Below are positions 21,330-63,759 of a DNA stretch of 64,000 bases, piece by piece (positions within the stretch are counted from its first letter, which is position 1; every line of letters begins with the position of its first letter). A model generated the notes under the pieces. That model made no database searches. It saw only the letters and a program-made list of their open reading frames with translations, and was not told the origin of the DNA. The translations under genes and the position numbers were made by a program. The stretch is from Fuerstiella sp. (GTDB lineage: Bacteria; Planctomycetota; Planctomycetia; Planctomycetales; Planctomycetaceae), in the NCBI GenBank assembly GCA_022447225.1, contig JAKVAZ010000011.1:62001-126000 (forward strand). Direction: 5' to 3'.

Positions 21330-24200
21330 CTACTTGCTGTCGCTCAGAGTTCTTTGGATTTCGTCGACGCGGAAAGCCTCCAGCAGATCGCCTTCCTTAA
21401 TATCATTGAATCCCTCCAGTCGGATCCCGCATTCCATACCGTCGCGCACTTCTTTGGCATCATCCTTTTCCCGCTTGAGTGAACCAATGCGGTAGTCATT
21501 CAGGACTTTCTGGTCGCGAATGACATGGATTCTGTTGTCTCGTGAAATCGTGCCATTCATAACCCGGCAACCTGCAATAGTACCAAACCGGCTGATCTGG
21601 AATGTTCGCAGTACAATTGCCCGTCCCGTCGTGACTTCGACACGTTCCGGTCGTAATAATCCTTCCAGAGCCTGACGGATATGTTCGGTGACTTCGTAAA
21701 TGATGTCATAGCGGCGAATCTCAATCCCTTCCTGATCGGCCATTGCTTGGGCGCGGTCTTCTGCGATCACATGGAAGGCAATGATGACAGCGCTGGCTGC
21801 GGTCGCAAGCGAGACGTCACTCTCATTAACGCCACCCACTGCGTTATGAATGATATTGATTTTCACTTCCGGGTGCTCGAACTTGTCAAGTTCGCTTCGC
21901 AGTGCTTCGAGTGAACCGGGTGTGTCCCCTTTAAGGATTAGTGGCAGCTCCTGAATGCCTTCACCCTCGCGCACCTGGGCAAGGATGTCTTCAATGGTCT
22001 TTGCCTGTCCACGTCCGGAGAGCGACCGCGAGCGTCCTTCGTGTTCCCGTGTTTCTGCGACAGTGCGAGCCTCTTCGATGTCCTTCATAACGAAGAAGTG
22101 CACGCCGGCTCCGGGAACGCTGTCCAGACCTGCGACTCGAACCGGCGTAGATGGTCCGGCTTCGTCTACCGGGCGGTCCTGATCATCATACATCGCCCGA
22201 ATACGACCGTAACTGTTGCCACACAGCACGTTGTCACCGACGCGAAGCGTTCCTTTTTGCACGATCAACCACGCCAGGACTCCCCGGCCTTCATCACGAA
22301 ATGATTCCAGACAGACTCCGATAGCCTCACGACGGGGATCAGTTCTGTATTCGTGAAGTTCTGCCGTCAGCAACAGTGTTTCCAGCAGACTATCGATTCC
22401 AAGTCCTGTTTCACCGGACGTCCGGACCACTTCGTATTCTCCACCCCATTCTGCCGGCAACAATTCATGCTGAGCGAGTTGCTGGAGGGCCTTTTGGTCG
22501 TCGACACCTGGCAGGTCCATTTTGTTCAAAGCAACGACGATCGGGACTCCGGCGTTACGGGCGTGACTAATACATTCTTCCGTCTGAGGCATCACACCGT
22601 CATCTGCAGCGACCACCAGGACGATAATATCTGTGACGTTGGCTCCCCGGGATCGCATTTCACCAAACGCCGCATGGCCAGGCGTATCGACAAACGTGAT
22701 CGGGTGTCCCTCATAGTCGACCTGATAGGCAGCAATATGCTGAGTAATTCCACCGGCCTCACCGCTGGCGACGTTTGATCGTCGCAGACGATCGATGAGG
22801 GTGGTTTTTCCGTGATCCACATGTCCCAGAATTGTGATTACCGGCGGTCGCGACTGCAGTGTTTCTTCGCTGTCCTCATGGTCCATGGACTTCAATAATT
22901 CGGCTTCGATGTCACGGCCCCGTTTGATTTCCAGATCCACGCCAAGTTCTATGGCGAGTTCCATCGCTTCATCTTCCGTCAGTTCGTCGTTGATCGTGGC
23001 CATCCGTCCTTCTTTAAACAGGATTGCTACGATCGAACCCGCCGGGCGACCGATCGCTTCGGATAACGTACGAATTGTGATCGGAAGCTCGATTCGAGCC
23101 GACGTCTTGAGTTCTGCCACCGGGCGATTCCGGCGCCGTTTCATTCGTTTGGATTGGCGAGCTAGTTTGCGCTGGTCGTTGAAATCCTTGAGTAATGAAC
23201 CTTTTCTGGATCCACGACCTCGGCTGGGTGCAGGTCCACCGTCGTGTTCTGCCCGTGCGTCCTTAAGTTGCTGGAGTTGATCGGCAAGTGGACTGTGCCG
23301 GTCAACGATATCTTTCAACGCCATGTCCGGCTTCTGGACTTTTTCCTCCCGTTCTTTTGGGCGTGAAACGGGTGGCGGTGTATAAGATGGGGGTGCAGCA
23401 ACCATCGGTCGGGCGACGATGGGTCGTCCTTTGCCATTACCTGGTTGGGGATTCGCAGGTGGATCTTCGGAATCGTCTGGTGTTTCCTGCGAAGGATCGG
23501 ATGCTTTGCGATCCTTTACAGAACCGATGGGTTTCATGTCCCGCATACGGTGCATGGTGGGACGCCGGACCTGCGGTGCTGACCCGGCAGCAGCAGGTGT
23601 GTCGTCTTCAGCGGCAGCAGGAGTGTCGTCTTCAGCGGCGGCAGGTGTGTCGTCTTCAGCGGCAGCAGGAGTGTCGTTTTCAGCGGCAGCAGGAGTGTCG
23701 TTTTCAGCGGCAGCAGGAGTGTCGTCTTCAGCGGCAGCAGGAGTGTCGTCTTCAGCGGCGGCAGGTGTGTCGTCAATTGTTTCTTCGGATACCGATGATG
23801 TATCGCTCGTGGTTACTTCTTCCGGAGCTTTTGGCTCTTCGTTCTGAGCAGCATCTATCTCATCGGAGTCGGAAGCTTCTGCCTCGCTGGCTATTTCACT
23901 TTGTGTTGTCTCATGGTTTGGCACTTCATCCTGTATTGAACGAGGTGCCATTGCCCGTATTTCACGGACCTTGGCTGCTGCTGTGGCTTCTTCGCGAACT
24001 GGAGCGAGTGCTTCGACCGATTTGGAAGGCCGAGGACCGGAATTGCGGTTCCTGATGAACGCCACAATCTGATCTTTTTCTTCCGGTGTAATTGTTGCAA
24101 GCGCATTACGAAGCTTCACACCGGCTTCATCGCAAAGTTCGATCAGAACTTTGCTGTCAAGGCCTAGTTCTCTTGCCAGAGCAAAGAGACGAATCTTCAA
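21330..24200 (-). CDS. infB: translation initiation factor IF-2
   Basis: 956 aa. The start is a TTG at 24198-24200, preceded by AAGGG about 10 bases upstream, and gives the IF2_N sequence [19 protein letters not shown]. Residues about 60-370 are disordered and include a tandem octapeptide (DDTPAAAE) repeated 8 times at 23584-23775, then basic and Pro-rich stretches. A second IF2_N-like domain precedes the G domain: G1 GHVDHGKT at about 457-464, G3 DTPGH, G4 NKMD. Domains II-IV end with the fMet-tRNA-binding C2 region. IF-2 delivers fMet-tRNA to the 30S subunit. The gene lies between nusA and rbfA, as in most bacteria. Confidence 0.97.
23584..23775 (-). repeat. 24-bp tandem repeat inside infB
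   Basis: About eight head-to-tail copies of a 24-base unit encode the octapeptide DDTPAAAE (two copies read ENDTPAAA). Adjacent copies differ by only a few bases, such as GGTGTG against GGAGTG, so the array is young or homogenised. It lies in the disordered N-terminal region of IF-2 and keeps the frame open. Confidence 0.9.
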
Positions 24201-53538: not shown

Positions 53539-53780
53539 GACGAGAGCCTGACTGGTTGGATTCCGTCAATTTCTGAATTTGTTTTGCCTGAAGCTGACAG
53601 GTAACAGGTGGTTCGCTCGCAGGAGAATCCTACTTACCATTCCGTCAAAACACTGTCATTGTAACGCATGTTTTGGGTTACATGTCGAATCACTGGTTGC
53701 ACTTGTTCCCGAAGTTCACTCTGATTCGCTTTGACAGCGATTCGTATCCGAAAACGGCATTGCCTCATCTTTCGTCCGCT

Positions 53781-56700
53781 ATGTCATCTGATTCTGATTC
53801 TAAACGTTCGTCATCAGCCCGTCGCGGTATTTGGTCGGTTTCATTTGTCAGCTACCTGACAATGAATCTGATGACGGTCATCAATGACAGCATGTTTCGC
53901 TGGCTGGTGGTGCCCATTGCCAAGTATCGAGCAACGCAGGATTTACCTGCGGAACAGATCGCCGGTCGGGAATCGCTGATTCTGGGACTTGGTCTCGGGT
54001 GTTTTATTCTGCCGTTTATGGTGTTCTCACCCTGGTCCGGCTGGCTTGCGGATCGGTTCAGCAAACGCCGGGTGACGATCGCTTTGAAGATTGCTGAACT
54101 GATTATCATCACTGCAGGATTGTTCACGATCCGGTTTGGCAGCCTGACGATGCTGTTTGTCATTCTTTTTTTGATGGGTACACAAAGTGCGCTATTGACA
54201 ACGACGAAGTTTGGAATCATTCCTGAACTGGTTCCGAGGAGGCAGCTGTCGGCTGCAAACGGACTGTCGGGACTGGTTACGCTGGTGGGAGTTATCGCCG
54301 GAACCGTGGCTGGAAACGGTCTTTATGGAATGTCTGACCGGACCGGTCTGTCGGGGCTGTGGATATCCGCAGTGGCTCTGCTGGGTGTGGCTGTGACCGG
54401 ACTGCTGGCCAGTTATCCCATCGATCGCGTGGCGGCCTGCAGACCATCAATGCCGTTTCCGGCTAATTTGATTCGTTACTCGATTCGGGATCTGCGACTG
54501 GTCATGGAGAACCGGGCCATTCGTCGTGTGACTTTGGGGATCGTTTTTTTCTGGTCACTGGCTTCGCTGTCCCAACTCACGATCGATACGTTCGTCAATA
54601 ACGAGCTCGAAATGAAACAGGATGCGGTCGGGCCGTATCTGGCCGTTCTTTCGATTGGTGTGGGACTGGGGAGCGTTCTGGCAGGGTGGTGGTCTGGTGG
54701 ACGAGTGGAACTCGGTATGGTGCCGCTTGGGTCACTGATGATGACCCTGGCCAGTGTTCTGGCATTTTTCAGCAGTGGGTCTCCGTATCTGTTTGGCGTT
54801 TCGCTGTTCCTGATTGGACTGGGGGGTGGTCTGTTCAGCGTCCCGCTTAATGCGTTTATTCAGGAACGCAGTCCGCATGGTCAACTGGGTGCAATACTGG
54901 CGGCAGGAAATCAACTCACCGCAGTGGGGATGATCTTCGTGGCCATGGTGTTTCCTTTTCTCAGAAATCAGCTGGGAATGGCGTCCAATCAGGTATTCCT
55001 GCTGGCCGGATTGTGGACGCTGCCGATCTTCCTCTATGTTTGCTGGTTGATTCCCCGGGCCACCATTCGGTTTGTTGTGTGGTTGTTCAGTCGAACCATT
55101 TACCGTGTTCGTAAGTACGGCGTCGAAAATATTCCCGAACAGGGTTCTGCGTTGCTGGTCGCTAATTACGTGACCTGGCTGGATGCGATTCTGATCCTGC
55201 TGGCAAGTTCCCGTCCCGTCCGATTGATTGCGTGGGCTGATTATGTTGAAGGGCCGTTGATGGGCAAACTGGCCGGTTTGTTCGGGATTATTCCGATCCG
55301 CTCTTTGGACGGGCCCCGGGCACTGGTGAAATCTTTAGACACGGTCCGCGAAGCGCTGAGAAACGACGAATTGGTATGCATTTTTTCTGAGGGACAGATT
55401 ACCCCGTCCGGGCAGTTGTTAAAGTTTGAACGTGGTATGCTGGAGATCCTCAGGGGGACAGATGCGGACGTGATTCCGGTCTACCTGGATGAGCATTGGG
55501 GAAGTCTCTTCAGTTATCATGGTGGCCGTGTTTTTTGGAAAAAACTCGGCCACTGGCCTTATCCCGTTTCGATCAGCTTTGGAAAACCCCTCTCACGTGT
55601 GAATGACGTCCACGTCGTGCGACAGTCAGTGCTGGAACTTGGCGCTGAATCTTTTGCACGAAGAAAGGAACGCAGAATGATTCCTGCCCGTCGGTTTATT
55701 CGCCAGTGTCGTCTTGCATGGAACCGCACCAAGTGTGCTGACTCTTCGGGTGTTGAGCTTACCGGAGGCCGACTACTAACAGGAACGCTGGCGTTTCACC
55801 GGCTGCTGACATCGTCAGTCCTGTATCCTGAAGTCAGGAATGTTGGGGTCCTGTTACCGCCGTCTGTGGGTGGGGTTCTGGCGAATTCTTCACTGAGCCT
55901 TGCCGGCAAAGTGACCGTGAATCTGAACTACACACTTTCGGAAGACGTTGTCAATTATTGTATCCGAACGGCGGGAGTGAAGCAGATCATCACCAGCAGG
56001 CGTTTCATGAAACAGCGTCCATACGAGCTGGACGCAGAGTTGATTTTCATGGAAGACCTGCGCCCGAAAATCACGGGAGTCGATAAAGCCAGAGCGTTTG
56101 CAGCAGCTCGATTCATGCCGCTTGGGATACTGAGTAAACGACTGGGACTGCACCTCGCGGAGCCCGATGACCTGATGACGATCGTATTTACATCAGGATC
56201 AACCGGAGAGCCGAAAGGTGTGATGTTGTCGCACAACAACATCCTGTCCAACCTGGATTCCATGACCGGAATATTTAATCTGACAAGTGAGGATACGATT
56301 CTGGGTGTGCTGCCGTTTTTTCATTCTTTCGGCTTCACCGTTACAATGTGGCTGATGCTGTGTGCCGATCCGGCAGGGGTTTATCATTTCAATCCTCTGG
56401 ACAGTCGGGAGGTGGCAAAACTCTGCGAAAAACAACGTGTCAGCATTCTGGCAGCGACGCCCACGTTTCTCAGAACGTACCTCAAGAGGTGCACCCCGAA
56501 GCAAATGGAGTCTGTGAGTCTTGCCATTGTTGGAGCGGAAAAACTGCAACCGGAACTGCGCAACGCCTGGCAGGAAAAATACGGGATCGAACCGACCGAA
56601 GGCTACGGTGCGACTGAACTTTCACCGGTCGCGTCGTTCAATGTTCCGGACAGCCGAATCAGTGGAGGAGCAGGCGGCTTCGAAGGACTACGACACGGAA

Positions 56701-57278
56701 CCGTTGGTCGTGTGACTCCCGGATCCGTTGCTGCCGTCTTTAGCCCGGAAACCGGAGAACAACTGGGAACGAATCAGAGCGGACTGCTCAAAATTAAGGG
56801 GCCCAATGTGATGTTGGGATACCTTGACCGACCTGAACTGACAGCTGAGGTTATTCAGGACGGCTGGTACAACACAGGGGACATTGGATGCATTGATGAT
56901 GAAGGTTTCATTGAAATTACAGGACGTCAGAGTCGCTTCTCCAAAATTGGCGGAGAGATGGTTCCACATATAAAAATCGAACAGGAACTGACGCGTATCC
57001 TTGAGGATGATGACACGGATGACCCGGATGTCATTTGTGCCGTGACAGCGGTTCCCGACGTTCGTAAAGGCGAACGTCTGGTGGTGTTGCATCGGCCTAT
57101 TGCCCGGCCGGTTTCAGAAGTGATTGATGAACTAAAACGGGCCGGGCTTCCGAACCTCTGGATTCCTTCCGTAGAGAGTTTCCGTGAAGTTGATTCACTG
57201 CCACTGCTGGGCACGGGAAAGCTGGACCTTCACGCAATGAAACAGGTTGCCCTGCAGGCTTTTGGTCCTGAGCAGTAA
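53781..57278 (+). CDS. MFS/LplT transporter - PlsC acyltransferase - acyl-ACP synthetase fusion (Aas-like)
   Basis: 1165 aa from ATG at 53781; longer in-frame starts at 53673 (TTG) and 53682 exist, and no site has a clear ribosome binding site. Part 1 (about residues 15-415) is a 12-segment MFS transporter like LplT (lysophospholipid import). Part 2 (about 420-610) is a PlsC-type acyltransferase: motif I reads NYVTWLD, motif III FSEGQITPSG. Part 3 (about 650-1160) is an AMP-forming synthetase with IVFTSGSTGEPKGVMLSH, YGATELSPV and GWYNTGDIG. In E. coli LplT and Aas are separate; they import and re-acylate lysophospholipids. In motif I the catalytic His of HX4D is Tyr (TAC). Confidence 0.93.
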   Translation: MSSDSDSKRSSSARRGIWSVSFVSYLTMNLMTVINDSMFRWLVVPIAKYRATQDLPAEQIAGRESLILGLGLGCFILPFMVFSPWSGWLADRFSKRRVTIALKIAELIIITAGLFTIRFGSLTMLFVILFLMGTQSALLTTTKFGIIPELVPRRQLSAANGLSGLVTLVGVIAGTVAGNGLYGMSDRTGLSGLWISAVALLGVAVTGLLASYPIDRVAACRPSMPFPANLIRYSIRDLRLVMENRAIRRVTLGIVFFWSLASLSQLTIDTFVNNELEMKQDAVGPYLAVLSIGVGLGSVLAGWWSGGRVELGMVPLGSLMMTLASVLAFFSSGSPYLFGVSLFLIGLGGGLFSVPLNAFIQERSPHGQLGAILAAGNQLTAVGMIFVAMVFPFLRNQLGMASNQVFLLAGLWTLPIFLYVCWLIPRATIRFVVWLFSRTIYRVRKYGVENIPEQGSALLVANYVTWLDAILILLASSRPVRLIAWADYVEGPLMGKLAGLFGIIPIRSLDGPRALVKSLDTVREALRNDELVCIFSEGQITPSGQLLKFERGMLEILRGTDADVIPVYLDEHWGSLFSYHGGRVFWKKLGHWPYPVSISFGKPLSRVNDVHVVRQSVLELGAESFARRKERRMIPARRFIRQCRLAWNRTKCADSSGVELTGGRLLTGTLAFHRLLTSSVLYPEVRNVGVLLPPSVGGVLANSSLSLAGKVTVNLNYTLSEDVVNYCIRTAGVKQIITSRRFMKQRPYELDAELIFMEDLRPKITGVDKARAFAAARFMPLGILSKRLGLHLAEPDDLMTIVFTSGSTGEPKGVMLSHNNILSNLDSMTGIFNLTSEDTILGVLPFFHSFGFTVTMWLMLCADPAGVYHFNPLDSREVAKLCEKQRVSILAATPTFLRTYLKRCTPKQMESVSLAIVGAEKLQPELRNAWQEKYGIEPTEGYGATELSPVASFNVPDSRISGGAGGFEGLRHGTVGRVTPGSVAAVFSPETGEQLGTNQSGLLKIKGPNVMLGYLDRPELTAEVIQDGWYNTGDIGCIDDEGFIEITGRQSRFSKIGGEMVPHIKIEQELTRILEDDDTDDPDVICAVTAVPDVRKGERLVVLHRPIARPVSEVIDELKRAGLPNLWIPSVESFREVDSLPLLGTGKLDLHAMKQVALQAFGPEQ

Positions 57279-60144: not shown

Positions 60145-60172
60145 ACACACACACACACACACATTTGTGTGT
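60145..60172 (+). repeat. AC dinucleotide tract with hairpin
   Basis: A 19-base (AC)n tract (60145-60163) directly follows the BRCT-MerR gene's stop codon. Its last seven bases can pair with TGTGTGT at 60166-60172 to form a hairpin. No T-tract follows, so it is a poor terminator. Confidence 0.7.
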
Positions 60173-60211
60173 TCACGCCGGCGGATTCGGATACTGATGG
60201 TTGCCACTTCG

Positions 60212-61036
60212 TCAAAATCGTCCGTCCCGACGTTCCCGAGCAGGCAGGATCTCCAGGCAGGTTGTCCACCATCCGTTCAGAATTGTTTCAACAAATTCAG
60301 GCGGAAGCGATTCGGCCTGCATTTCTGACGCCAATCGGTGATGGTTGTATCGAATTGGAACGAAATCAATACTGACCGGCACTGTCAGGTCGGACCCGCG
60401 ACATACTGAGGCATTTTTGTCTGCGTCCACTCCAGTTCGCAGGATGGTCGACCAGACATACGTCTGACCATCATTTTCCGGTCGTCCCAGAACGCCTACA
60501 TTGATATAGCGACGGCCATCTGACAATTCTCGCTCCCAGTGAATTCCGGAATGTGTTCCGGCGATTATGTCCGCGTCGTATTCCAGACTAAGTCGGTCGA
60601 GGAATGCAGTACTGGTTGACGATTCCCACAGAAATTCATTCGTCTTTCTCGGACTGCCGTGACACAACAGGATTTTCAGGCCGTCTGCCGTCACACGAAT
60701 CTCAACCGGCAGGTCTCTTAGCCAGATCTTGTTGTCGTCGCTGGTGTTTTTTAGTGTGTACTCGTAACTGATTTGAGCGAAATGATTGTCTCGCGGATCC
60801 GTATAGCCACACTGACAGTTGTCCAGTTGGTTGCCGATACTGTCATCGTAGTTCCCCTGCACACACCTGATGCTGTGATCGTGGAGTAGCGGGAAGACTC
60901 GGTCGGGATGAGGGCCGAAGGCGCCGAGATCACCAAGGCAAAAGATGTGATCCACGTTACGAGCCCTGGCGTCCGCAATTGCGGATGTCAGGGACAGATA
61001 ATTGCTGTACAGACCTCCGAACAGTGCAATTTTCAT
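60212..61036 (-). CDS. metallophosphoesterase-like protein with altered motif I
   Basis: 274 aa. The ATG at 61036 overlaps the stop of the radical SAM gene (ATGA), so the in-frame extension to 61111 is ignored. The calcineurin-like fold is recognisable: motif II LGDLGAFGPHP, motif III QGNYDD, motif IV LLCHGSP and a final GTHSGIHW. Motif I, normally D-x-H (SDIHSN), reads GGLYSN at residues 7-12, so the Asp and His are Gly and Tyr. The metal site is therefore incomplete, although the other ligands remain. Between them is a Cys-containing insert (NCQCGYTDPRDNHF). It is the last gene of the flavoprotein-radical SAM operon and may be a partner without classic phosphatase activity. Confidence 0.88.
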   Translation of the reverse strand: MKIALFGGLYSNYLSLTSAIADARARNVDHIFCLGDLGAFGPHPDRVFPLLHDHSIRCVQGNYDDSIGNQLDNCQCGYTDPRDNHFAQISYEYTLKNTSDDNKIWLRDLPVEIRVTADGLKILLCHGSPRKTNEFLWESSTSTAFLDRLSLEYDADIIAGTHSGIHWERELSDGRRYINVGVLGRPENDGQTYVWSTILRTGVDADKNASVCRGSDLTVPVSIDFVPIRYNHHRLASEMQAESLPPEFVETILNGWWTTCLEILPARERRDGRF

Positions 61037-61947
61037 GACTTCGTCGGAAGCTCCGGACGACTCAGTGTGGTATTGCTGCAGATGGCACCATACTGGTAGC
61101 AGGTATAGCACGCGCCGTGCTGCATTGGAAATGACTGCAGCGACCCGGCAAGTGTTTTGCCCATGCGGGCATCCGGAGATTCAATCAAAATTGGACATAC
61201 AAAAACGCCCCGACTTGTGATCACGCGACTGTGATGGCACAGCAGTTGGTCTCGATCGAAGTCGTGCATCATCTCAGGGCTGACGCGTTCGGTGTCGTGG
61301 TAACCTTCGGTACGGTTTTCTTCAGCTCCGATTTTTAAACGAGGCAGGATTTTTAAACGGGGGCGGCTGCACCCGTGTCGCTTCAGAACCGATCGGAATT
61401 TCTCCAGAATCGGCAGACTTTCGGAGTCGTCCCACGTCTGAGTCATCGTGATGATTGGCAGAAAACCGGCGTTACAAAGCAGACTCACACCCTGAATGGC
61501 TTTGTCGAATGTACCGGCCCCACGGACAGGGTCATTGATTTCCGGTGATGGACCGTCGATCGAGACACGAAATTCCAGGCTGAACCGGCCGGCCTGCTCT
61601 GCAGCGTAAAGTTCGTCCAGCCACGCGGATTTTAATACAGTTCCGTTTGTGAGCACGGTGGCGGGGCCATACTCCAGGGTGCGTTTGAGCATTTGTCGCA
61701 GATCTTTGTTCAGAAATGGTTCCCCTCCGGTGAAATAGTATTCGCGTACACCATGCTGCACAGATTCCTGAAGCGCTGTTTCCACATCTTTGTATGACAG
61801 GAATTCAAAGCTGTGGTTGTGGGGACTGCAGCTGATAAAACAGTGTTCGCACTTCAGGTTGCAGACCGTACCTGCAACCTGAAACCACAATTCATCCAGG
61901 GAACGAAGCTCAATCGACGGACAGATTGATGCTGTCTGGGATATCAA
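61033..61947 (-). CDS. radical SAM protein with C-terminal Cys cluster
   Basis: 304 aa from a TTG at 61945-61947, preceded by AAGGAG at 8 bases and overlapping the stop of the flavoprotein gene (TTGA). A GTG at 61968 in the same frame is possible. The radical SAM [4Fe-4S] motif is VCNLKCEHCFISC (CxxxCxxC, with one extra Cys), followed by YYFTGGEPFLNKD (the GGE SAM loop), LTNGTVL and FRVSIDGPSPEIND. The C-terminus has CHHSRVITSRGVFVCP and HGACYTCYQYGAICSN, a SPASM/Twitch-like Cys set that may bind a second cluster. The substrate is unknown. It is coupled to the genes on both sides, so a joint pathway is likely. Confidence 0.92.
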   Translation of the reverse strand: MISQTASICPSIELRSLDELWFQVAGTVCNLKCEHCFISCSPHNHSFEFLSYKDVETALQESVQHGVREYYFTGGEPFLNKDLRQMLKRTLEYGPATVLTNGTVLKSAWLDELYAAEQAGRFSLEFRVSIDGPSPEINDPVRGAGTFDKAIQGVSLLCNAGFLPIITMTQTWDDSESLPILEKFRSVLKRHGCSRPRLKILPRLKIGAEENRTEGYHDTERVSPEMMHDFDRDQLLCHHSRVITSRGVFVCPILIESPDARMGKTLAGSLQSFPMQHGACYTCYQYGAICSNTTLSRPELPTKS

Positions 61948-63128
61948 ACCGGCGTCTCCTTGGGACACAGATACTGATCGAAAAGTTGTTCAATTTGATC
62001 GAATCCATTTTTCATGAGGAACCTCGGGTCGCGACCGTAACTGGCGGCACCCAGAATATAGAAATGGGGTTCCGGGTTACTGAGAAGTTCCACCGTTCCG
62101 CCTGTCTGGTTCAGGCAGTCGTCTGAAGTTTCCCCGATAAGATGAGCGGCCAGTTTGATGGGACCTTCGGTCGCGTAGCAACGATGGATTTGCAGTTCTT
62201 CAAACGGGCGATTATCGGGCCGAAAACCCGGATTTGCCACGACGCGATCGCAGGTCAGTGTTTTCTGATGACCGTCAGCTGATGATATGTTCAGCTGATA
62301 TTTACCATTGTTGCGTTCGATCGATTCGACCTGAACGCCTGGACACCACTGGACCGGGGATCCGGGACGCAGGGCCAGCGCATTGGCCTGATCTGTCAAC
62401 GCACGCCGCTCCGGTAAACGATCGTCGGCAACAGGTGCAATCGGTACGTCTCGAGAACCCCGGGTGATCCATGTCATATTCAGAACAGAGTTCTGCAGCA
62501 CGCAGACCGATGTTGCAGCTGAATAGCCGCTGCCGATCACGAGGGTGTGATCCGACGAACCAGGGAGTGACTGTGGTGCTGCAATTTCGTAATCAGCATG
62601 AGTGAGGCAACGTAGCTCCCCTGGACACGGAATTCCCCCGATACCGACAGCACGATGTTGCGTTGTGAATCCTGTACAATCGAACAGTATTTCAGATTCC
62701 ATTACGGTTTCAGAACCATCTCCTCGCCGGACGAGCAGACGAAACGGAGACGTGGAGCGTTCCGGCTTTCTGACTGCGTCTTTTTTTCCATACATACTGC
62801 GACTGACAGCAATGAGTTCAGTGGACGTTTGAATCACCCCCCGCAGCTGTTCGCTGGCGGCCAATGGACTGAGATAGTGTTGTACGTATGCGTCCCCGGT
62901 GAGAAGTTCATCACCGTGCGGTAGTGGTGCTGTTTCCGCTGCCGCAGTTCGACCGCTGGCGGTGCTGTTCATAGAAAACGGCGTGAACAGTTTGACATGG
63001 GCCCATCGCTGTATCGCTGCCCCGACGTTCCCTCGTTCCAGCACGGTGACATGGAATCCGTTCATTTTGGCCTGCAGTGCTGCGTGCAGACCAATGGGGC
63101 CGGCTCCCACGACGATGAGACGGTTCAT
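61944..63128 (-). CDS. FAD-dependent NAD(P)-binding oxidoreductase
   Basis: 394 aa. The N-terminal FAD Rossmann motif is LIVVGAGPIGLHAALQAKMNG, with GAGPIG at residues 8-13. A second dinucleotide-binding motif, VIGSGYSAATSV, lies near residue 205. Between the two is the ATG motif-like FDCTGFTTQH. This is the layout of flavin monooxygenases and thioredoxin-reductase-like enzymes with an NAD(P)H domain. No redox-active CxxC is evident. It is the first gene of a three-gene operon and overlaps the radical SAM gene by 4 bases. It could supply electrons to the radical SAM enzyme or oxidise its product; the reaction is unknown. Confidence 0.9.
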   Translation of the reverse strand: MNRLIVVGAGPIGLHAALQAKMNGFHVTVLERGNVGAAIQRWAHVKLFTPFSMNSTASGRTAAAETAPLPHGDELLTGDAYVQHYLSPLAASEQLRGVIQTSTELIAVSRSMYGKKDAVRKPERSTSPFRLLVRRGDGSETVMESEILFDCTGFTTQHRAVGIGGIPCPGELRCLTHADYEIAAPQSLPGSSDHTLVIGSGYSAATSVCVLQNSVLNMTWITRGSRDVPIAPVADDRLPERRALTDQANALALRPGSPVQWCPGVQVESIERNNGKYQLNISSADGHQKTLTCDRVVANPGFRPDNRPFEELQIHRCYATEGPIKLAAHLIGETSDDCLNQTGGTVELLSNPEPHFYILGAASYGRDPRFLMKNGFDQIEQLFDQYLCPKETPV

Positions 63129-63510: not shown

Positions 63511-63531
63511 ATGAAGGTAGAGGGGCGGCTG

Positions 63532-63759
63532 ATGCGGGGGCGATTAAAGCTGTTTCAGAGTGACGGCAGCTGGCAGCACGAAGACTCCAGAGCAACACAC
63601 GCTGTAATGCCGCTGGAGGACTTTGCTCGGGTCATCGCAGATGCCGTGACGTGGGACCGAACCTGGCTACAGGATTTTTCCGATGACCAGGTGATTGTTT
63701 CACAGGATTTGTACGAAATCATCCGGATGTGCAACGATATCCGTCAGGTCCGGGCGTAA
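63532..63759 (+). CDS. small conserved-looking protein
   Basis: 75 aa from ATG at 63532, with AGAGGGG 6 bases upstream; an in-frame ATG at 63511 has no such site. The product starts MRGRLKLFQSDGSWQHED and continues AVMPLEDFARVIADAVTWDR with an acidic patch and a C-terminal helix (SQDLYEIIRMCNDIRQ). The alternating hydrophobic and charged pattern is that of a folded soluble protein. I recall short planctomycete proteins with a similar DGSW...ARVIADA block but cannot name a function. A perfect terminator follows 88 bases later at 63847-63874. Confidence 0.65.
   Translation: MRGRLKLFQSDGSWQHEDSRATHAVMPLEDFARVIADAVTWDRTWLQDFSDDQVIVSQDLYEIIRMCNDIRQVRA

Follow-up and report, generated by a model that had tools for sequence, protein, structure and literature searches.

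A flavoprotein, radical SAM and degenerate phosphoesterase gene set that probably replaces ArsS in organoarsenical biosynthesis of Planctomycetota

A coupled three-gene unit and its distribution

The window, a 64,000-nucleotide stretch of DNA (C11:62001-126000 of genome G000), belongs to a 5.4 Mb planctomycete genome; among named relatives, Fuerstiella sp. (L039, 87% identity) is the one closest to the locus. The three minus-strand genes described in an earlier note, together with the 4-base overlaps at both of their junctions, were present as described (Table 1). The flavoprotein, which had been read as a two-Rossmann protein, matched Pyr_redox_3 of Pfam with 62.1 bits (cut-off 30), in agreement with that reading, and the other two products were above the Pfam cut-offs of Radical_SAM (62.2 bits) and Metallophos_2 (43.1 bits), respectively. 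None of the three proteins reached an NCBIfam cut-off among the matches listed, and no Rfam family matched anywhere in the window. Translation of the radical SAM gene could also begin upstream of the TTG, at a GTG (61968). Among relatives, a possible start at -4 was found at the flavoprotein/radical SAM junction in 40 of 73 cases and at the radical SAM/phosphoesterase junction in 20 of 81.

Table 1 Positions of the genes and overlaps at the locus, of the arsenic-related genes elsewhere in the host genome, and of the gene cluster in genome G003. Positions without a prefix are those of the window.
Feature	Position	Strand	Description
Flavoprotein	61944..63128	-	two-Rossmann, 394 aa; Pyr_redox_3
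Radical SAM protein	61033..61947	-	304 aa from TTG start; Radical_SAM
Metallophosphoesterase-like protein	60212..61036	-	274 aa; Metallophos_2
Overlap TTGA	61944..61947	-	radical SAM start / flavoprotein stop TGA
Overlap ATGA	61033..61036	-	phosphoesterase ATG start / radical SAM stop
Host ArsM	L191:6502-7659		328 bits to NF040538; single copy
Host TIGR04282	C4:85813		158 bits
Host TIGR04283	C11:153082		229 bits; 27 kb beyond window end
G003 TIGR04282	C31:25793-26302		
G003 flavoprotein	C31:24322-25509		
G003 radical SAM	C31:23426-24292		
G003 phosphoesterase	C31:22593-23363		
G003 ArsM	C31:~21412-22785		
G003 TIGR04283	C31:18728-19390		

Other features of the window were also recorded. A (TG)n tract with a short inverted repeat lies just past the phosphoesterase stop codon (60150-60180); its folding as a hairpin was no better than that of shuffles (z 0.98). 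On the strand opposite to the three genes, a small ORF of 82 aa (63511-63759, plus strand) has relatives near the same genes in at least three other loci. Further away, a 1201-aa protein (53673-57278, plus strand) appears by eye to combine an MFS-type transporter, an acyltransferase and an AMP-ligase domain.

The presence or absence of the genes was determined in a spread of 392 Planctomycetota genomes, with calls at >329 bits for the radical SAM protein and >330 bits for the phosphoesterase. The two genes occurred in an identical set of 22 genomes. When 42 genomes were compared for the flavoprotein, it was found in all 22 of these genomes and in 0 of the 20 others. The three genes (hereafter the triad) are thus a conserved unit, being common to the same 22 of 392 genomes. 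In some genomes they are not linked (the phosphoesterase in G353; the flavoprotein in G024, G137, and G194), and because the genes co-occur even when unlinked, their association is functional and goes beyond synteny. A search of the GTDB contig collection with the radical SAM protein returned 80 loci, nearly all planctomycete, most of them with the phosphoesterase on the same strand and many with the flavoprotein. These neighbourhoods and the 22 genomes bear out the belief, voiced earlier, that radical SAM and phosphoesterase genes of this type recur together. About 30 relatives have a ThiO (glycine oxidase) gene upstream of the triad. As a candidate fourth member it was rejected; it is absent beside the triad of the window and looks like shared synteny.

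Conserved residues of the radical SAM protein and the phosphoesterase

The CxxxCxxC motif and the C-terminal Cys cluster that the earlier note had pointed out are both present and are invariant among relatives. The motif reads C29-x3-C33-x2-C36 and is followed by an invariant C40; with C237, C251, C280, C283, and C290 in the C-terminal region, nine Cys are invariant in total. The five C-terminal Cys may bind a further Fe-S cluster, as in SPASM/Twitch radical SAM enzymes. The fold is nearest to those of the peptide maturases SkfB and SuiB and of BlsE (Z 19-22).

In support of the earlier reading, the radical SAM protein stayed below every curated NCBIfam cut-off among the matches listed. The best NCBIfam match of its core was the Rv1681 family (NF049973), with 107.7 bits against a cut-off of 380 and limited to residues 27-195; one plasmid member of that family lies near an ArsM-like methyltransferase, a likeness to the set of the window. 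Among radical SAM enzymes, the one characterised in the biosynthesis of arsenosugars is ArsS (TIGR04167), as cited in PMC12159101. The window protein is not an ArsS, because it scored 49.9 bits with the ArsS model against a cut-off of 300, over residues 16-162 only, and because ArsS, at 20-21% identity, sits on a long separate branch of the tree. A profile alignment of the two covers nearly the full length with all C-terminal Cys in register (98-99%); the ArsS Cys align with the five listed above, a pattern that is loosely common to other Twitch/SPASM proteins. ArsL of arsinothricin biosynthesis, a radical SAM enzyme encoded beside ArsM that forms a carbon-arsenic bond, is 428 aa long, carries its CX3CX2C motif at 194-201 and conserves only three Cys (PMC8552651). 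The window protein differs from this description of a single Fe-S cluster, three conserved Cys and ~428 aa, with 304 aa, its motif at 29-36 and six more invariant Cys.

The third protein is a degenerate metallophosphoesterase. The assignment of ligands to metal sites, which we take from established family knowledge and an alignment to 3qfm, places the loss at site 1: in 68 of 68 sequences DxH has become GxY and Gly takes the place of the second His of GHxH, so that invariant G8, Y10, and G164 stand where the site-1 ligands would be. In the same 68 sequences, the site-2 ligands D36, N62, H126, and H162 are invariant, and Cys 33, 74, 76, 125, and 260 show complete or almost complete conservation. 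The protein thus departs from the two-metal metallophosphoesterase pattern (DxH, GD, GNH, H, GHxH). Its structure model (pLDDT 94.9) matched over the whole chain the asymmetric Ap4A hydrolase SapH (3qfm; Z 26.9, 2.6 A over 242 residues) and the archaeal 1nnw (Z 26.9, 2.2 A over 231 residues) and 2gju (Z ~27); it differs from all three in the loss of the site-1 ligands, in its conserved Cys and in its longer C-terminus. Judged from these residues, ordinary two-metal phosphoesterase activity would be unlikely. The earlier note had allowed that the protein may bind or process a product, and, with one metal site lost family-wide, it looks closer to a protein that binds or has been remodelled than to a regular phosphoesterase.

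Genomic links to arsenic genes and exclusion of ArsS

Most radical SAM matches in the phylum beyond the 22 triad genomes were fused or adjacent to an ArsM-like methyltransferase. ArsM is adjacent in L128-L132 and L135, and single proteins of ~590-625 aa in L119-L127 (families f46 and f95) are radical SAM-ArsM fusions; those of f46 mostly end in CGPKCC or a close variant, and other fusions have ~850 aa. The fused or adjacent methyltransferases scored ~150-350 bits with the ArsM models NF040538 and NF008823. An adjacent ArsM was not demonstrated for L133, L136, G065, G076, G102, and one match in G023. A TIGR04053-like radical SAM gene is close to the locus in L120 and L130. A literature search, with most subscription papers outside its scope, returned no report of the triad or of planctomycete radical SAM-ArsM fusions.

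The triad itself is tied to arsenic genes in G003 (L154), where TIGR04282, the triad, ArsM, and TIGR04283 all lie on one strand (Table 1). A TIGR04282-type gene was also found near the triad, mostly upstream, in L089, L098, L099, L104, L105, L116, L150, L151, and L155. The 'arsenosugar' glycosyltransferase names of TIGR04282 and TIGR04283 are curated predictions. Most triad loci have no adjacent ars gene.

No ArsS was found in the host genome, in which ArsM, TIGR04282, and TIGR04283 are scattered and unlinked to the triad. A phylum-wide ArsM search (E 1e-30) had suggested a host genome without ArsM, a reading that was dropped when a full search found the gene; the apparent absence was an artefact, because the threshold was strict, six candidates were scored, and an ArsM with an insertion was matched in two pieces. 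In sister genera (genomes G048 and G152), ArsM, ArsS, and both glycosyltransferase genes form one cluster, and a nucleoside phosphorylase-domain gene after ArsS in G048 (L195:11325-12161) agrees with an adenosine intermediate. In the host, the end of a glutaredoxin-like gene (DUF836, 38 bits; L192:6236-6799, contig C4) overlaps the start of TIGR04282, and a similar glutaredoxin-like/TIGR04282 pair lies near the triad in L116.

The phosphoesterase gave two further, independent pointers to arsenic. In the planctomycete G187, a diverged degenerate phosphoesterase (27% identity) lies behind arsR and arsM. On plasmid p546-1 of Roseomonas haemaphysalidis (L211, 53271-70134), TIGR04282, DUF547, two radical SAM genes and a degenerate phosphoesterase occur together with a phosphonate-type (PhnD-type) ABC transporter; this phosphoesterase has the same degenerate motifs (FGGPYSN, DCGCG, and GHCG), and one of the radical SAM proteins is 31.6% identical to that of the window. 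No ArsM was found within this stretch of the plasmid.

The radical SAM clan and ArsS rarely occurred in the same genome. ArsS was present in 131 of the 392 genomes and the clan in 58, with 1 genome in common versus 19.4 expected (Fisher 2e-10; this and the following p-values overstate the significance, because related genomes are not independent). By genus, 3 were in common versus 15.2 expected (5e-6). The exclusion was weaker for the triad alone, with 1 genome shared with ArsS where 7.4 were expected (p 0.001, and 0.026 by genus); the other radical SAM relatives shared 0 versus 12.0 (2e-7). The sole genome with both triad and ArsS, G320, is a 9.1 Mb MAG of 910 contigs that is 80% complete. 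The exchange of ArsS and the clan repeats in separate families (f1, f2, and f46) and inside genera g113 and g120. Within the family of the window, 9 genomes had the triad and 15 had ArsS with no overlap; all 24 had TIGR04282 as well as a TIGR04283 match, the latter of at least 176 bits, and the 4 genomes lacking both triad and ArsS also lacked both glycosyltransferases. Over the sampled genomes, TIGR04282 was found in 83 of 87 with either enzyme (a count that takes in one truncated match at a contig end, in G281) versus 5 of 35 with neither.

Interpretation, rival readings and proposed chemistry

Three lines of evidence, namely gene neighbours, fusions and the patterns of presence and absence, point to organoarsenical metabolism for the triad. 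We consider it very likely that the triad acts in arsenic metabolism, and it is probably a non-orthologous replacement of ArsS in the biosynthesis of an organoarsenical, probably of the arsenosugar type. The chances that it yields the same product as ArsS are evenly balanced. Of the earlier reading, the conserved unit stood; the pathway was not foreseen and, judged from the same three lines of evidence, would be arsenosugar-type rather than peptide modification. A ribosomal-peptide reading was set aside in view of the arsenic links and of the flanks, in which no precursor was noticed by eye.

In a rival reading the triad would not act on arsenic; the radical SAM protein would have been recruited from an arsenic-related family to another small molecule or a peptide, with the correlations reflecting ancestry and lifestyle. 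The nearest folds (SkfB, SuiB, and BlsE), the lack of an adjacent ars gene in most triad loci, the unlinked ArsM and glycosyltransferases of the host, and the phylogenetic correlation among the genomes all speak for it. However, the triad, ArsM, and both glycosyltransferases form one cluster in G003, the exclusion of ArsS repeats in f1, f2, and f46 and within g113 and g120, and a degenerate phosphoesterase lies inside an arsR-arsM operon, and we regard this reading as improbable.

A role in arsenic detoxification, such as methylarsenical oxidation or demethylation, would also fit that operon, and the flavoprotein has a weak ArsO match (25.4 bits, cut-off 425). This match is far under the cut-off and confined to the first Rossmann part, whereas the near-obligate glycosyltransferases argue for a biosynthetic product, which makes detoxification in place of biosynthesis very improbable.

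ArsS reportedly couples a 5'-deoxyadenosyl group, and ArsL transfers the 3-amino-3-carboxypropyl part of SAM. The triad might act on arsenic with a product unlike that of ArsS, either with a different part of SAM as the transferred group, such as the one that ArsL uses, or through the modification of an organoarsenical already made. The ArsM proteins of the host and G003 match the arsinothricin ArsM model best (328 and 348 bits; cut-off 500), and the set requires two extra proteins that are absent from ArsS operons. On the other hand, the same ArsM subtype adjoins ArsS in the sister genera, TIGR04282 and TIGR04283 accompany both ArsS and the triad, and the three conserved Cys of ArsL contrast with the nine invariant here (PMC8552651). 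We regard this reading as unlikely.

For the preferred reading, replacement of ArsS, we propose the following inferred chemistry. ArsM would provide methylated trivalent arsenic. To this arsenic the radical SAM enzyme would couple a radical from the cleavage of SAM, most likely 5'-deoxyadenosyl as in ArsS; its C-terminal Cys would lie nearby or hold an additional Fe-S cluster. The degenerate phosphoesterase could bind the arsenical or the adenosine product through its Cys and single metal site, and the flavoprotein might give or take electrons or oxidise arsenic; both roles are guesses from fold and conserved residues. In the earlier note the flavoprotein had been suggested to reduce the enzyme or finish its product. 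The TIGR04282 and TIGR04283 enzymes would then work on the radical SAM product. The window enzyme shares ArsM and these two enzymes with ArsS as genomic partners. ArsS does without the flavoprotein and pseudo-phosphoesterase that are obligate here, so the proposal does not account for the need for these two.

It is about as likely as not that this is a second, separately recruited system for the C-As bond of arsenosugars, in which a radical SAM enzyme, an obligate flavoprotein and a one-metal, Cys-bearing, arsenical-binding pseudo-phosphoesterase replace ArsS in much of Planctomycetota, with relatives in Proteobacteria. Arsenosugars are major arsenic compounds of marine life, and to our knowledge no enzyme other than ArsS has been characterised for the step that forms the bond. 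If the set substitutes for ArsS, more organisms would be predicted to make arsenosugar-type compounds; in the 392 genomes sampled, 131 have ArsS, and the wider radical SAM clan would add 57 that lack it. The proposal, if true, would give a pathway to three protein families so far annotated by fold only, one more way, besides ArsS and ArsL, for a radical SAM enzyme to form a C-As bond, and an example of what the metallophosphoesterase fold can turn into.

A possible selenocysteine (Sec) was observed at the last Cys of one relative each in the ArsS family and the window family. In a distant radical SAM relative (L136:9822; G025 contig C2), an in-frame TGA replaces the last conserved Cys (CFSCFAAGTT-TGA). 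A stem-loop lies directly behind this TGA (z -2.4), and the genome has a tRNA-Sec (77.4 bits). GxxU is listed as the Sec motif of TIGR04167 in a selenoproteome review (PMC13188914), and the L136 protein may be a new selenoprotein form with this motif. Sec at the same position in both families would indicate a shared catalytic or arsenic-contacting role, an indication that is suggestive only.
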